From the NCBI GenBank assembly GCA_019973155.2, contig BPQB01000189.1:1-16876 (forward strand): DNA of 16,876 nt, written 5' to 3'. The stretch comes from Phanerochaete sordida (Eukaryota > Basidiomycota > Agaricomycetes > Polyporales > Phanerochaetaceae). The notes beneath the pieces were generated by a model. The model had not been told where the DNA came from, ran no database searches, and worked only from the letters and a program-made list of their open reading frames with translations. Below are positions 2,476 through 12,735 of the stretch, one piece after another. The position numbers and the translations under genes were made by a program. Within the stretch, counting starts at the first letter, position 1, and each line of letters starts with the position of its first letter.

Positions 2476-4234
2476 ATGACGGTCAGTCCGCCTCTTCGCT
2501 ACAATCGCAAGTGATCATGATGTGCTCACCAGCGCATAACAGATGGCGCGGCGCGCCAACCATGTGGCCTCTCGCAAGAAGATCGCAGCGCTCAGCATGA
2601 ACCAGCTCCCAGTCGAGCTGCTACTCGAAATATTTCAGGACTGCCTCGACAGCACGCGAAGCGATAGCCACGCGCAGCAGCTTCTTCGCCTCCAGCGGGT
2701 CTGCCTACAGTGGTACACTGTCATCGAGAACCGATCTCGCCTTTGGGCCGTGATCTATCTGGCGACGCAGCCTCCCCGATACGTTGAGAAGGCCCTTCAG
2801 CGCTCGCGCAACGATCCTCTGTGGGTAGAGACGGCAGCGGAGTACGCGGAAGACGAAGATGAGGACTCTGAGCCCACCGAGTCGAGCCTCTACCCCATTC
2901 ACATTCGCGAACAGGCGGAGGCCCTCATGGGCATACTCAAGACAGAGATGCATCGCATACGCGTGCTTGTCGTGGAGAATTGGCAGGTCCAAGACGTTGT
3001 CCGCGACAACCTACACGCTACGCTCGATGCGCCCGCGCTGGAAGTGCTTCGTCTCCCTGCTGGGATTCCGAGCGACAGCGCCTGGTTTTCGATACTCATG
3101 TCGGCCCCGAAGCTGCAAGACCTGGAGGTCGGCGGGTTCGACGATCTTAAAGCATGGAGCAGCCTCGGAACTGCCTCCCTCCAATCGCTGCGCAAGCTCA
3201 TTCTCAGCAGCGACTACTACGGCGAAGCCGTGCCGACGCTGCCTGTCATCCTGCATCTGCTCCGTTCCGTGCCACGCTTGGAGATTCTCACCCTTTGGAG
3301 CATGAATCCAGATCGAGAGCAGCCATGGGCTGCTACGGACGAAATCACCTCCTTGCCCAAACTACGCAAGCTCGTTGTGGAGCAATGCGGGGCTCATAAC
3401 GCTCTGATGCTCCTGCGCAGCTTGGTGCTGCCTCCTGGTTGCATCGTCAGGCATGCTGAACGCTATGAAACCGATGTCCGCCTTCCACCATTGGATTATC
3501 CAAGACAGGCATCCGCCACGCTTGATGTAGCGGCCACTGTCGGCGCGCTCTTGCAAGGCGCAGGGGAATTCTACTTCGGCTTCGAACGGCGCAGCGACCG
3601 GGTCATCGTGCGCATTGCCGACCAAGACGCACCCATCGATATGACCGACACCGATAACTCTCTGGTTCGCGTCGAGCTCCCACCCCACCCCGACTTCGTG
3701 CGCGACTTCTGCGCGCGCCTGCCACTCTCGCGGGTCGTCGTCCTCTGCCTTGAAGCCATCTGCAGATGCGAGCGCTGGGAGCACGCTCGCCCGCCGACAT
3801 TCTCGAAGGCGGACGAGGTGCGGGGCTTGCACGAGCTCTGCGCAATGATGCCTAGCGTGCGCGAGCTCCGTCTGGAGAGCACCTTCTGCGACTGCGTTGC
3901 CGCGGCGTACGTGTCGCTCGTCGCCGCCGCGCCGCCTGACCTGACCACGCTACGAATCGTCGTCGACGAGGGCTACGACTTGCATCTTGAGCGGCGCCCC
4001 AGGGTCTTCGTGGAGGATTTGCTTCACACGCTCCGACAACGCGAGCTCGCGGGGTACCCGATATATAACCTGAGCGCCAGGAGCAAGGATAGAAGAGACG
4101 GGTTGGACCGCGAGATCATGGACGAATGGTCAAAACGAGGAGACGAAGGAGGAAGATGTGATTTCAATATGGACATCTCTGATGCGTGGAGGTGGGGTGA
4201 AGCAGAATGGTATGATAACATGGACTGTTCGTGA
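2476..4234 (+). CDS. F-box-like domain protein (second of a tandem pair)
   Basis: Proposed exons are 2476-2481 and 2543-4234, giving 565 aa. The first exon encodes only Met-Thr. It is followed by a 61-bp intron (2482-2542) with donor GTCAGT, branch-like CTCAC and acceptor ACAG, and joins in frame to ATGGCG. If that intron is only in the leader, translation starts at 2543 and gives 563 aa. Counting from 2543, the F-box-like domain is about residues 20-72 (LPVELLLEIFQDCL ... RVCLQWYTVIENRSRLW). An acidic run (EDEDEDSEPTE) follows, then a Leu-rich C-terminal region. Its role is expected to be a Skp1-binding SCF substrate receptor. Base composition is more GC-rich towards the 3' part, around 3600-4000. 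It is a clear paralogue of the gene just upstream in the same orientation, so a local tandem duplication is likely. Confidence 0.85.
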
Positions 4235-6427: not shown

Positions 6428-6432
6428 CGGCC

Positions 6433-6447
6433 AGCCTATATGCGCTT
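6433..6447 (+). repeat. 15-bp direct repeat, left copy
   Basis: AGCCTATATGCGCTT is identical to 12721-12735. The two copies lie just outside the two terminal inverted repeats of the element. Here the repeat is the first part of a small hairpin (AGCCTA at 6433-6438 pairing with TAGGCT at 6448-6453). It also lies in the RidA promoter. Confidence 0.6.
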
Positions 6448-6465
6448 TAGGCTTGATTCTAACAG

Positions 6466-6498
6466 GGGGGGTCGTGGTGAGGTCTCTCGGAGTCTGAA
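6466..6498 (+). repeat. Left terminal inverted repeat, 33 bp
   Basis: Begins GGGGGGTCGTGGTGAGG and ends GGAGTCTGAA. It is the exact reverse complement of 12616-12648, 33 of 33 bases. One more G lies outside (6465), preceded by AACA. A perfect inverted match of this length 6 kb apart cannot be chance. Confidence 0.93.
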
Positions 6499-6649
6499 TT
6501 TGAGGCCCATGCCGTCATTGCCGGCCGCCTGCCGCGTTCACGTGACAGTCGCCTCAGAGCGCGAGCTCCTGCGCGTCGTAAATTAGCCTCCTCCCTTCGC
6601 TCCTTCTCTACCCTATGCTGCGCGTTATAATCCCTCTCTTATACCCATA
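6499..6649. promoter_or_regulatory. Helicase promoter region inside the element
   Basis: The stretch between the left repeat and the helicase ATG carries an E-box-like CACGTG (6539-6544). It also has a pyrimidine-rich tract with a TATAA-like sequence (6626-6630) about 20 bases before the ATG, too close for a canonical TATA box. Confidence 0.35.
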
Positions 6650-8715
6650 ATGCGAATTGACACAATTACGACCGAAAATGTCACCGCTGTCGTGTGTGAA
6701 GGCTGCAAAATCAAGGAGCTGCGCCCTTTTCAAGTCCCTCACATCGTCGACATGTCTCTAGGCAAGAGCCTGGTGCTCGTCGCTGCCCCAGGCTCCGGAA
6801 AAACCATCATAATGGCGGGGCCGCTCCTCGTCGCGCAGGCGATGGGTCAGTCAGGCATCGCCTTTGTTGTGGTCCCTTCCAAAATCCTAGTAGACCAGCA
6901 GGTAAGCTCCTCGGCTCTCGGACCTCTCGAGCACGCTAAGTCAGTATTCTCAAGGCTGCAAGCTTTGGAGACTTTGGTCTTCGCACGCTGGCGATCAACG
7001 AAGATACTGTACGCTCCGCTAGCCTGCTTGGACGCGACCTCTGGGCCGAGCTTGCTGCCGGCGACGATGTCCGCGTCGCGGTCGTGACTCCCTGGATGAT
7101 CGCAAGTGACCGACTATATGCGCTTCTGAGAGACGCTAAATTCAAGAACGCCATCCGCTGGCTCGATATCGACGAAGTACACCTGTGTCTGGAGAAGCTC
7201 TCGGTCTGGAGCAAGCCCTACGAAGCTCTTCAGAGCTTGCGCACTCGCCTCCCATCCTCGACGGTCTGGGCAGTCTTCACTGGGACAGCGACCATCAAAG
7301 AAACTCGAATCATCGCTTCTGGGCTAGGTTTTGCTCCTGGTACCTACGTCGATGCCCGCTACTCTGTTGACCGCCCCAATCTCAAGTACACCACCCGATT
7401 CTTTGCTCATTCCGTGTCTGGCTACGAATTCTACGACCTGGCTTGGCTCATTCCTTACGAAATGAAGAACTCTGCTGAAATACCCACTACTCTCATCTTC
7501 TGCGACACTATCGAGCTCGGTGTTCGCCTCATGGCTTTTCTAGACGACTTGATCCCCGACGACGTCCCTGATCGCCTTACTCTCATAATGCCCTGCAACT
7601 CGCTCTTCAAGCGCTCCTTCCGCCTTCGCTTTCGAGACGGCATGGAAGCGGGCCGCATCCGTATCGGCATCTGTACGGAAACCTGCACGTACGGCGTAGA
7701 CATCCGCAACGTCCGCCGCGTCATTACCTTTGGACAGCCAAAGTCCTTCGCGAAGATGAAGCAAGAGCTCTGCCGTGCCGGTCGCGATGGTCTTCCTGCT
7801 CGTGTCTACTGTTACGCGCCGCCTTGGATGCGCGACGTCCCCTTCTACGAGATCAAGGGCAAGCAAGCGAAGGAAGATCTGGCGCGCCGAGAAGCTCTTG
7901 ACCCTGTGGTCCGCGACTGGTTCAACGCCTGCGGTCCGCACGTCCTAAACCCGCGCTGCCCTCGCCAGATCGATATGGATCACAACAGCGAGGCGTTCCA
8001 TCGGCCGGAGCAGTGCTGCTACTTCCACATCCCTGACGATGAATCGGAGGTAAACGACGAGCTGAATGCGAAGCACCTTGCACACCGCCAGTCCAAGCTT
8101 CCGCCCAAGGTACCCCTACCGCGATCCGACGGAACATACTCCGCTGTCGAGACTGCGCACCGACAGTCTCTGAGCGCGATGCTGAAGCGATGGAGACAAG
8201 ACGAGTGGGACGACATCCGCGGTCCCGACGAGGACTTTCCATCCGAGGTCTTTCTCCCCCAACATCGCATCGACCGTCTCCTCGCCAAAGCACACATCTG
8301 TACCTGTCTTGAACGACTGCGCCTGGTCATGGCTGGCTGGAACTATCTCGAATCCCATGGCGAAAAGCTACTTGCATTCATTACTCCCATTCTCGAGGCT
8401 TTTCGGAAGATTATTGGCGAACGCCAGTACGAGACTCTCTGCGCATCAACAGACTCTCAACTGCCACCGGCTGTTGCTGCAGATGGGCTCCCGGCTGTAC
8501 AGGCTTCGTCGGAAAGCTCTGCGGCGCAGTCCTCGACATCTCGAACTACTGGACAATCAGATGCTAGCACGTCGTCCGCGCCTCTACCACGTCTCGTTCT
8601 CAAGATTCGTATGCCTACGACGGATGCAGCCGCAACGCCAGCGATCTTGTCCCCAAAGCGACCGTTACCCGACCACGAGCTCTCGGAAACTGAGGGTCGC
8701 AAGAGGGCGAAATAG
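6650..8715 (+). CDS. RecQ-like superfamily 2 DNA helicase
   Basis: Two exons, 6650-6901 and 6955-8715, give 670 aa. The 53-bp phase-0 intron has donor GTAAGC and an AAG acceptor, the only nearby one that keeps the frame. SF2 motifs in order: Q-motif-like LRPFQ (residues 24-28); Walker A APGSGKT (46-52); TPW (129-131); Walker B DEVH (157-160); motif III FTGTAT (about 192-197); motif IV TLIFCDT (263-269); motif V YGVDIRNV (330-337); motif VI QELCRAGRDG (354-363). After these come Cys410, Cys419 and the pair Cys438-439 with nearby His, placed like a degenerate RecQ zinc-binding region. The C-terminal 100 residues are Ser/Ala-rich and disordered, ending in basic KRAK. All catalytic motifs look intact, so an ATP-driven DNA helicase is expected. 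No winged-helix or HRDC domain is evident. It lies inside the inverted-repeat element and is convergent with the DUF6589 gene, which suggests a role in transposition rather than host repair. Confidence 0.88.
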
Positions 8716-8804
8716 CGCGGAGATGTAGGCAGAAGGCTGGACGGTACCTCAGATAATCAGAGCGCTTGCATAGTAATGAATTACATACGTCGCTTGCTCT
8801 CGCT

Positions 8805-11800
8805 TTATGGTGCGGTCTGTTCGTTCAGGATAGCGGTAGAAAATTCTTGCAGGCTTGAGACACCGTTCACAACAGTAATCGGGTTTGCCGGAATGCGCTC
8901 TTCTTCTGCCTCCTGTAAGTCGTTCAGCAAATATGTGATGGGCGTAGAGGCGCAGGTCAGCGACTTACAAGATCCTCAAGCTCTTCTGGTGTTACCCGGA
9001 AAGGCTCTCGCGAGGTTCGTTGCAGGAATGTGTCCAACTGACCGCCATCGAGCTTGTTGAACCCTCGCGAAAACTCGTTCACAACTGTGTACGACTGCGT
9101 TCGCCCGCGGTGAAATACCAGCACCATGTCACGCCGGTAGTGTTCCCCAAGCTTATTGATATCAGCCGCGATGGAAGCGGGCGTGTGTCGCCCGCCAGAC
9201 TTGGTAGTACGGAAGATGTCGCGGAAGCGGTCGCGCAGGTCGTTGAACCCGCGAAGATTGAAGCTGACGCACTCCCGTAGGAACTTGGAGTCGAAGTCGA
9301 GGCTCTTCGCGTTGAACAGTAGCTTGATCCAGTAGTTGTAGTGCTCCAGAAGCAGGTCACACTCCTGCCAATGACCAGGAAGTCCGGACGGGTTGACCAG
9401 CCAGTTGTTCAGGAATGTGATTCGCAGCTTCTCCGAGAACTCGTAGAGAAAGTTGCAGGCAAGCTCGAGCATCTCGTTGCCATAGTTCGTCGCCCCGCAG
9501 CCCCAGAAGGAAAACCTCCAGATCTGACAGTCGCATCTGTTAGCTCAAGTGTTGTCGTTCATATAGAGCACCGGTGCGTGTACCTTGATAATTTCCCAAA
9601 CCCGTCCCATGTCTCCTACAGCGACCGCAGTGCAGAACTCGAGGTACCAGAGTACAGCCCGGAGGAAATTGACGTTATTGGCTATCACACGATCAGCGGT
9701 CGACGCAAGTCGTGCGCTGGGTGCGAACGCGGCGGACGGTCCATATCGGGCTTCTGTCCACTTGTCGTCGTGTTCACTGTGGTCGCATGCCGTCTCGGTG
9801 TAATAGCGGTTGTACAGAGTGCGCGCCATGTCCTCGAGGCAATCAAAGCAGTGGTCTGCCAGAGGACCATCTTTGCCGAAGTACTTCTCGAGGCAGTCGA
9901 GAAGATTATCACTCGCAGGATATACCACCCCAGTGTACTCCTCGCAAAGCAAGCTGTCCACATATTAGCCTACCAATGACAAGAGAATATATTATGACTA
10001 TAGAACGCACCGAATGCCCTCCAGAGTCAACGCCTCAAAGCGAACCTCGAGGAGACCGTGCATGGGGTAGAAGTCGCACTTTGTGGGATTAAGCTGACGC
10101 TGCAGCAATTCGCAGTCGTGGCGAAGACCGAACGTTCCGGCCTCGATTGTCGGTGCCCAGTTGAGCTGCACAATGTTCTTCCCGTTATTCCATTTGGTGT
10201 GCCATAGCTCGAGCTGCGGGCGGAGGAAGCGACCACATTCCGCATTGGTGCCGCCCTTCAGGACGGCGCGTTGGAGCTTCCGTGTCCGGTCGACACTGAG
10301 CTGATCCCCGCCAACGATGAGGATAGAATCTTCGAGCCGTTCATCCGATAATTTGAGCTGTGCGTCATACACGTCCTGAAGCGCTTCGTTGACCCCGGCA
10401 GTCGTAGCCTCGTTCGCGCCGGAACAGCGCAGAGACGTGATGTCGCTCTTCCGAAGGCGCAAGCGATGTACGGCGTAACTTTCGCTGAATAGGTGCTCGA
10501 CATTGGAGTTATGGCGTTGCAAGGCAGGGACGTGCTTGACAAGTGTGCGGAGAATGTGGCCGGTGCCGATTCCTCGTACATGAGCCCAGTTGATGTCTTT
10601 CTTTAGCTCTTCGACGGTCAGCTTGGAACGAGCATTGCTGGCGATATTTTCGAGCAAAGGGCTGAGGCGGAGCGCGCCTTCGGGGACGTCTTCGAGCTTG
10701 ATGACGATTGCTGAGGTCCCACAGCGAAGAATGTTGCGGTGACCTAGCGTGGGGTCCCAGGCACGGGCCATCTTGTTGACGTTGTCAAAGACGACCTTTC
10801 CGTCGAAGGGACCGTCTGGATTCTGCATGATCCAGTCGTCGAGCCTCTTCTGAGAGTCCTTGGCAATCTCATGGAGCTTGCGTAGGACGTCCGAGCGCGA
10901 AATGGAGAGTCCGATCCGAGAGCACATGGCGAAGATGGTGTGATTCGCTCTCGAGATGAAGAGCAGCATGCCGACAATGGTCGCGAAAAGCGTATTAAAC
11001 TTGTATTGTATGTATAGCAGCATACACATGATCGTTGTGACAGCCTACGAAAGGCGGAATGAGTATATCATTCATACAGATACTGTGGGACCGTACCAGC
11101 CAAGGGTCGCGCCGCATGTTGAGGGCTATCCCAGGATCGGCTCCTGCTTCGTCTACGTCGTCCTCGGCGATATCCTCGCGTCGCGCGCTCTGATTATCCT
11201 CATCAGCGGCAGGGAACAGGCCTTCGCTGCGAGCCGCTCCCAGGTCGCTAGCATGGAGCTCGTCGTTACCAACGGGTTCTTCTGGTTCGCGCTCGTGCTG
11301 TAGCATCGACTCCTCGTCTGACGACTGCTGCGTAGGTGTGATCGCCTCTGTTGCGGCTTCAGCTGCAGTGCGATTCGGGATGGGATCGTACGCATCGCCG
11401 AGCCGCTTGCGAAGCCTCTTGTTCACGGCCATGGTCGACAGAACTGCGAATGACACAGGAGCCTGTGGTGGTGACGCATGTAAGAAGCGTTACAGTGTTG
11501 CGGAGGCATGCACGTACCGTGGACGCCATAAATCTCTCGATCTCAGTCGAGTCCCATGCTGTCAATAAGGACCAGCGAATAACACCGCCCATGTCGAGAA
11601 GCTCGCTGTCTCGCAAACGGCGCGTCTCCTGGTCAACCTCCTCCAGCGTGATGAGTAAAGCGAGCTGGATGATGGAGTTTCGGGTGGACGTGGGCTGAAG
11701 AGCATTACTCGGCCCTGCGCGACTGCGGTCATCGGGACCACGAGCATGGCGCGGCAAGGCGGGGAATGTGGGGCGCACGCGCTGACCGTCGAGAAATTCT

Positions 11801-12279
11801 TGAGCGTATGGGTGCTCGTACAGCAGACGAACGATGTCGACAGGTCTCGTTCCTTCGCGCGAGCTCTGATGGACGAAAGCCGAGATGGACTGCTTCACAG
11901 TTTGATGCCATTTGTCGCCAGGACGTACGCGCAGTAACGTCGATATGAAGTCACCAATGCTGTCAAATTGAGCGCGCTTGATGCATCTGATGACGACGAG
12001 CAACCTGTGCTCTAAGCTGAGATCATTGGTAGCGTGAGGCGTATCTTGGAATAGCGGCATAGAATTCGCTTGGTTGGTACGAGAGCCGTTAATGAACTCC
12101 GATTCGATGGCGGACAGCTGTCTGCCTGGAGCTGGAGCGGGAGATGGAGGATAGTAAATGGGAAACGCAGGCCCCGGCGAGTAGGAGTAGGGCGAGGCTA
12201 AGGGCGGTAGCTGTGGATAGCTCCACGGAGAGAATGTCGACGGAGTGACGGGTGTATGCAGTCCCCCCATGGTTCCCAT
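8805..12279 (-). CDS. DUF6589 protein, probable DDE-type transposase
   Basis: Six exons, 1,064 aa: 12279-11518, 11462-11097, 11044-10011, 9953-9584, 9523-8969 and 8912-8805. The introns are 55, 52, 57, 60 and 56 bp, each phase-consistent. Branch sites are clear in several (CTAAC, CTAAT). Residues 1-120 are Pro/Tyr/Ser-rich and look disordered, a helical region follows, then an acidic linker (about 280-370). The C-terminal two thirds match my memory of DUF6589 (PF20231-type) proteins: a hydrophobic start (about 377-420), FDNVN (D463), GGDQLSVDRTR (D623), LELWHTKWN, RAVLWYLEF, then FWGCGATNYGNEML, NNWLVNPSG and LLLEHYNYWI (E904). The order of D463, D623 and E904, each in a conserved-looking block, is compatible with a DDE nuclease core; that catalytic assignment is inference. 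The start ATG is the first in frame after a TATA box at 12352-12358; another ATG follows at 12270. The gene is convergent with the helicase and lies within the same inverted-repeat unit. Confidence 0.82.
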
Positions 12280-12309
12280 CGTCGGGGAGCCCTGGGAAGA
12301 GTCAAATGA

Positions 12310-12336
12310 GACTCTCCGAAGGCTCAGCCTTGAGTC
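12310..12336 (-). promoter_or_regulatory. Hairpin-forming palindrome in the DUF6589 leader/promoter
   Basis: GACTC (12310-12314) pairs with GAGTC (12332-12336). Inside it, AAGGCT pairs with AGCCTT around one base (12319-12331). It lies between the TATA box and the start codon, at or just after the expected transcription start. Confidence 0.4.
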
Positions 12337-12351
12337 AGAGGGACTCTGGGT

Positions 12352-12358
12352 CCTTATA
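12352..12358 (-). promoter_or_regulatory. TATA box of the DUF6589 gene
   Basis: TATAAGG on the minus strand, 72 bases before the ATG at 12279. This is a normal spacing for a start site near 12325 and a leader of roughly 45 bases. Confidence 0.45.
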
Positions 12359-12615
12359 TGCGTCGGGGTCGCCAGGTTGGCAGACCCAGAAGCGCGAGTG
12401 CCATCCTCTGCGGGTTGGCTCGCGCGGAAGCCTACGATTTTAGGTATTTCAGCGTGACGAAATTATTAGTCAACGAGCTTCAATCGTTTACCGTCATCTT
12501 CGTCGTTACTCTGAGACATATTCGCGTCGAAAAGCCTTGTATTGAGCTGTACAAGAGGCAAGTTACATGCAAGGCCGCGGTTCGAGCTTTGCGAGTTCGG
12601 CAGACGCCGAAATAT
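12359..12615. other. Subterminal region of the element, right side
   Basis: Gene-free stretch between the DUF6589 promoter and the right inverted repeat. A plus-strand frame (12358-12861) runs through here and across the repeat, but I do not consider it a gene. No further repeat shared with the left end was seen. Confidence 0.4.
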
Positions 12616-12648
12616 TTCAGACTCCGAGAGACCTCACCACGACCCCCC
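12616..12648 (-). repeat. Right terminal inverted repeat, 33 bp
   Basis: Exact reverse complement of 6466-6498 over 33 bases. It ends in CCCCCC, followed by GCGTTTAATTCC outside the element. Confidence 0.93.
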
Positions 12649-12658
12649 GCGTTTAATT

Positions 12659-12714
12659 CCAGCCTCTATATGGAGGAACGACGGTACCGCCTCTTCCGAA
12701 ATTTTAGAGGCTGG
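12659..12714. repeat. 10-bp inverted repeat just outside the right TIR
   Basis: CCAGCCTCTA at 12659-12668 and TAGAGGCTGG at 12705-12714 are perfect inverted copies with a 36-base loop. The arm resembles CCAGCCTA beside the left end of the element (6431-6438). Confidence 0.55.
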
Positions 12715-12720
12715 CATGCG

Positions 12721-12735
12721 AGCCTATATGCGCTT
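12721..12735 (+). repeat. 15-bp direct repeat, right copy
   Basis: AGCCTATATGCGCTT is identical to 6433-6447 and in the same orientation, 72 bases outside the right inverted repeat. It is flanked by GAGC...GCTC, so it also sits in a small hairpin (12720-12739). Confidence 0.6.

Follow-up and report, generated by a model that had tools for sequence, protein, structure and literature searches.

The window, that is, the whole stretch of DNA analysed here (16,876 bp), is the entire contig C189 of the Phanerochaete sordida assembly, which (40.8 Mb in 222 contigs) was also the sequence searched for further copies; labels such as C126, C12, and C26 denote contigs of this same assembly. Its central part is occupied by a mobile element in which a gene for a RecQ-like superfamily 2 (SF2) helicase and a gene for a protein of the DUF6589 family (PF20231) are arranged tail to tail. 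The element, its target-site duplication (TSD), and its genes are as follows.

6448-12726, no strand: complete transposon, 6,279 bp, TAGGCTTG...CGAGCCTA, delimited by alignment with two 566-bp copies and by the flanking TSD
6439-6447, plus strand: TSD, left copy (TATGCGCTT), flanking-repeat scan
12727-12735, plus strand: TSD, right copy (TATGCGCTT), flanking-repeat scan
6466-6498, plus strand: left arm of a 33-bp perfect inverted repeat, subterminal, 18 bp inside the end
12616-12648, minus strand: right arm of the 33-bp perfect inverted repeat, subterminal, 78 bp inside the end
6650-8715, plus strand: RecQ-like SF2 helicase gene, 670 amino acids (aa); exons 6650-6901 and 6955-8715, intron 6902-6954 (GT-AG)
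8805-12519, minus strand: DUF6589 (PF20231) gene, 1,124 aa, predicted DDE transposase; exons 12519-12492, 12431-11518, 11462-11097, 11044-10011, 9953-9584, 9523-8969, and 8912-8805
12659-12714, no strand: subterminal palindrome between the right terminus and the 33-bp repeat, arms 12659-12668 and 12705-12714, fold prediction

Ends of the element and target-site duplication

The first-pass annotation had regarded the two 33-bp repeats as the boundaries of the element. They are indeed exact reverse complements (∼2e-12 such repeats expected by chance in 16.9 kb, by our own arithmetic) and sit within a 50-bp inverted repeat of 88% identity (6449-6498 and 12616-12665; BLAST E 1e-11), but the true ends lie farther out. 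When 76 bases of the left end were compared with the assembly, four places matched: both ends of the window element, C126, and C12. The latter two each contain a 566-bp unit with both ends, and their similarity to the window extends beyond the 33-bp repeats on either side, as far out as positions 6448 and 12726. At these very positions, the TAG...CTA termini (TAGGCTTG and TAGGCTCG) adjoin the 9-bp direct repeat TATGCGCTT, and direct repeats are likewise found at the exact ends of the 566-bp copies (C126, CGCAGGCAG, 9 bp; C12, CTTCTACG, 8 bp). Because the similarity of the copies and the direct repeats coincide at those points, the element is assigned to 6448-12726 and the 33-bp repeats, rejected as termini, are considered subterminal.

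The six host bases immediately left of the TSD, AGCCTA (window 6430-6447, TSD included), equal the right-terminal hexamer, which results in a 15-bp direct repeat (AGCCTATATGCGCTT) on both sides. A TSD of 15 bp was rejected because AGCCTA belongs to the element in other copies; no such extension of the flanking repeat is present at C126 or C12. The hexamer beside the left TSD may be fortuitous, reflect a target preference, or be what is left of an earlier end. In the assembly, 748 and 774 bp of the window flanks matched nothing but the window itself and thus revealed no empty site; plasmid BLAST with the left end gave no match, as expected.

Related elements, non-autonomous copies, and a possibly modular right end

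Including the window, the assembly contains ten DUF6589 loci. A scan that required TAG...CTA termini and an exact duplication on their outer sides delimited four of them, along with non-autonomous copies; those not yet described are listed after the four.

Window: 6,279 bp, TSD of 9 bp
C26: 5,848 bp, TSD of 8 bp
C2: 6,285 bp, TSD of 10 bp
C20: 3,711 bp, TSD of 9 bp
C6, non-autonomous: 547 bp, TSD of 8 bp
C94, non-autonomous: 373 bp, TSD of 9 bp
C10, non-autonomous: 1,524 bp, TSD of 10 bp
C26 mini-element (L059:1490-1554, C26:311038): 65 bp, both C2-family ends, perfect 10-bp TSD (AGGACAGACA)

A fifth DUF6589 locus, C9, lies between two occurrences of the 9-bp TCGTAACCA, and its left terminus, TGATCTTG, is atypical; the C152 locus, whose left part is cut by the contig start, is a copy of C9 at 92%. 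For the DUF6589 loci on C37, C12 (92k), C213 (beyond its first 2 kb), and C30 (contig start), no ends were found. Altogether, 11 copies carry duplications of 8 bp (three copies), 9 bp (five), or 10 bp (three); ten of these stem from the exact scan (six plus four), and C9 was read by eye. The scan scored at 11 of 21 loci, compared with five hits in 420 first-order Markov control sequences. One of the 11 scoring loci, on C64, is an unrelated element of 1,206 bp (L045:3737-4942) that is flanked by an 8-bp duplication (GGCGCTCC) and whose inverted ends, TAGTGAAGG, resemble the DUF6589 element ends in TAG only. The outcome that the first-pass annotation had named as refuting its reading (neither a second copy nor an empty site, with the repeats as ordinary host sequence) did not arise: the ends recur elsewhere with TSDs of their own, which supports the earlier proposal that helicase and DUF6589 gene form one mobile unit.

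Most informative among the relatives is the C20 element, which, with TAGTCT ends and 144-bp terminal repeats (97%), gave no helicase match despite its 9-bp TSD; its DUF6589 reading frame is only distantly similar to that of the window (23% identity). Pairs of C20-family ends ∼1.8-1.9 kb apart, too short for a full gene, were also observed (C1:2341385-2343257, C20:84119-86044, and C110:43243-45026). The 65-bp mini-element is nearly as short as an element with two ends can be.

The right end of the window element is ∼60 bp longer than the left, palindrome included. This palindrome is weak (fold z -1.8; 11 of 200 shuffles equally good), and fold prediction gave none for the left end (z +1.8); palindromes just inside the termini are also predicted in the C20 repeat (z -6.9), the C2 left end (-5.0), and the C2 right end (-2.9). 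The right end reads as though an older terminus (...TTTAATTCCAGCC) had been extended by a module of ∼62 bp ending in GCGAGCCTA (window 12659-12726), and this module, or part of it, is the sole match at 15 other places in the genome. Two of these were read: at C7:389526, the 9-bp CCCTCGCTC stands on either side in a CGCT-rich stretch and the inner end is not TAG, and at C20:290642, no clear flanking duplication was seen. That a mini-element was captured as a new right terminus of the window element is a guess that fits.

The helicase gene, the DUF6589 gene, and their linkage

As the first-pass annotation had noted, both genes can be read from start to stop once the introns, one in the helicase gene and six in the seven-exon DUF6589 gene (all GT-AG), are removed. 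The helicase model is identical to a deposited 670-aa P. sordida protein (P0082), whose locus tag (PsYK624) suggests strain YK-624. It contains RPFQ, GSGKT, DEVH, TGTAT, and GRDG, which we take to be RecQ helicase motifs, and its best match among solved structures (PDB) is helicase Q1 (E 1.4e-10). The DUF6589 protein is a clear member of PF20231 (E 1e-111). Its deposited counterpart, PsYK624_170210, agrees over its whole length of 800 aa with the C-terminal part of the model but lacks the 324 aa before it, which are encoded by exons 1 and 2 and the beginning of exon 3. Since relatives match the N-terminal 330 residues (up to E 8e-38), the 1,124-aa model is better supported than the deposited one.

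The Pfam entry assigns no function to DUF6589, the 81 basidiomycete relatives among the matches listed (the window's own protein included) are named hypothetical or uncharacterised, and among the openly licensed PubMed Central papers searched, "DUF6589" occurs in none and "PF20231" only in an unrelated one on optics. A further protein search from the DUF6589 alignment yielded only two proteins, a profile search against PDB chains gave no sequence match, and Pfam no hAT match. The AlphaFold model (pTM 0.79) is nearest to DDE transposases: the first 13 rows obtained with VIA-align, with moderate Z, are all DDE transposases or RAG1, while no Foldseek match reached E 0.001. The predicted fold matches Hermes, a hAT transposase with ∼9% sequence identity to the DUF6589 protein; hAT transposons are not known to encode a helicase. 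Residues D199, D359, and E640 are retained in 9/9, 8/8, and 9/9 of the other genomic loci covering them, and each shows 90% or higher conservation in a set of 35 of the 81 proteins. E597 is disfavoured as third catalytic residue, being tyrosine in C9 and C152; E600, conserved in 8/8 loci, is a possible candidate for it. Taken together, the DUF6589 protein is probably the DDE transposase of the element, as suggested by the modelled fold and favoured by the conserved acidic residues. The notion of a mobile unit is unaffected by doubt on this point because it rests on the ends and duplications.

The same convergent gene pair is present at five of nine helicase loci (the window, C26, C2, C9, and C152), in three of them besides the window inside bounded elements (C26, C2, and C9); C213 has both genes in the opposite arrangement. 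At the helicase loci on C76, C64, and C12 (38k), no DUF6589 match was found within the stretch read, a weak one at C12 not being reproduced by tblastn. The C76 sequence (C76:103769-105526; L044), 45% identical to the helicase and containing one stop, has no DUF6589 match within ∼4 kb and is possibly a relic or a lone helicase. Among 17 close helicase relatives (P0083-P0099), five, from a second P. sordida contig, Trametes, Cerrena, Cerioporus, and Cytidiella, are paired with a DUF6589 protein on a contig of equal length, from which the shared contig was deduced (for Cerrena, also from consecutive locus tags); the other 12 have no DUF6589 partner among the matches listed. For these five pairs and that of the window, the distances between helicases correlate with those between DUF6589 proteins (r 0.80), a value that only the true pairing reaches among 720 permutations. 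Helicase and transposase thus travel together, though not always.

Left of the insertion, two reading frames (323-2059 and 2540-4234; LPDELL and LPVELL) are presumably F-box-like, and a minus-strand frame near the contig end (16288-16815; LLLGQSESGKST) is one that we take to resemble a G-protein alpha subunit.

Affiliation of the element and proposed mechanism

The data make it highly probable that the segment 6448-12726 constitutes a DNA transposon of the AcademH type, complete and apparently autonomous, with the DUF6589 protein as its DDE transposase and the RecQ-like helicase as an accessory. AcademH was reportedly defined by Kojima in 2020; Academ elements have a Cys8 zinc finger, the AcademX nuclease is XPG-like, and the TSDs of Kolobok and KolobokH are TTAA. 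AcademH is the most likely affiliation of the window element, judged by TSD length and RecQ helicase as compared with printed descriptions, in agreement with its nomination as the closest described type in the first-pass annotation. Excerpts of the respective papers report a RecQ helicase in Academ (PMC3627910), a TSD of 9 or 10 bp for AcademH and of 3 or 4 bp for AcademX, which has a nuclease in place of the helicase (PMC10045372), and low copy numbers of AcademH in Basidiomycota (PMC10799480). The window element resembles AcademH in combining a predicted DDE-type transposase with a RecQ-like SF2 helicase encoded inside the ends, and its own 9-bp TSD lies within the printed range; the copies in this genome span 8-10 bp, three of the 11 departing from that range with 8 bp. 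Within the Academ superfamily, the second named lineage, AcademX, differs from the window element in both helicase and TSD length according to the same excerpts. Among the literature matches listed for Academ together with Phanerochaete or with Cys8, there were only unrelated papers.

The most serious alternative, though an improbable one, is that DUF6589 elements constitute a separate DDE superfamily outside Academ, in which some lineages gained a RecQ helicase independently. The helicase-free C20 element, with the same kind of ends, would fit this and differs from AcademH, and so does the fact that the DUF6589 alignment has only two cysteine columns at 70% or more, a Cys8 zinc finger not being evident. 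However, TSD length and the RecQ helicase agree with the accounts of AcademH and Academ in the excerpts, which also place AcademH in Basidiomycota. Very unlikely is identity with KolobokH or another helicase-bearing Kolobok, in which a DDE transposase is combined with a RecQ helicase: none of the 11 copies has a TTAA TSD, all being of 8-10 bp and varied sequence. KolobokH is, like the window element, a fungal DDE transposon with a RecQ helicase (reported only from fungi), and in a rhodophyte Kolobok, the helicase is on the complementary strand, as here (excerpts of PMC9587614). The KolobokH helicase, however, is described in the same excerpts as downstream of the transposase domain (PMC9587614), whereas here the helicase is a separate, convergent gene on the opposite strand; this and the TSDs led to rejection of KolobokH. 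That both are host genes between an old inverted-repeat pair, as the GenBank names (hypothetical protein for DUF6589, DEAD/DEAH box helicase for the other) might imply, is barely credible in view of matching ends with their own TSDs at unlinked loci, the recurrence of the pair in three other bounded elements, and the transposase-like predicted fold.

For the AcademH-type transposon, a cut-and-paste mode can be envisaged. The DUF6589 transposase would bind the TAGNCT...AGNCTA ends, together with the subterminal repeat and the palindrome, excise the element by DDE chemistry, and link it to the target across a stagger of 8-10 bp, which host repair would turn into the TSD. Opening of the ends, clearance of the strand-transfer complex, or assistance in gap repair is the probable task of the accessory helicase, and transposases of the same family may act in trans to move short internally deleted copies. 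That the element may still be active, as had been proposed, is unproven: neither gene is disrupted, but the assembly yielded a single full-length member of the window family and no empty site, and the two closest non-autonomous copies show 97% similarity.

The difference in TSD between AcademH and AcademX "seems related" to the presence of helicase versus nuclease, according to an excerpt of PMC10045372. The 9-bp TSD of the helicase-free C20 element argues against this printed suggestion and for a stagger set by the transposase, provided that no helicase is supplied in trans. A broader and more tentative proposal, held with rather less than even confidence, is that DUF6589 represents a basidiomycete DDE group with TAGNCT ends, an optional helicase, a stagger set by the transposase, and modular ends, of which fragments of 62-65 bp move alone and one was taken over as the right terminus of the window element.

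The general type of the element has been described before; what is new is a member with mapped ends, which suggests that DUF6589 is the transposase. With an intact element, a helicase-free relative of the same stagger, and a 65-bp derivative at hand, the role of the helicase becomes testable with short donor DNAs. If DUF6589 proteins are transposases, many apparent host genes, together with adjoining RecQ-like "repair" genes, would belong to mobile elements.
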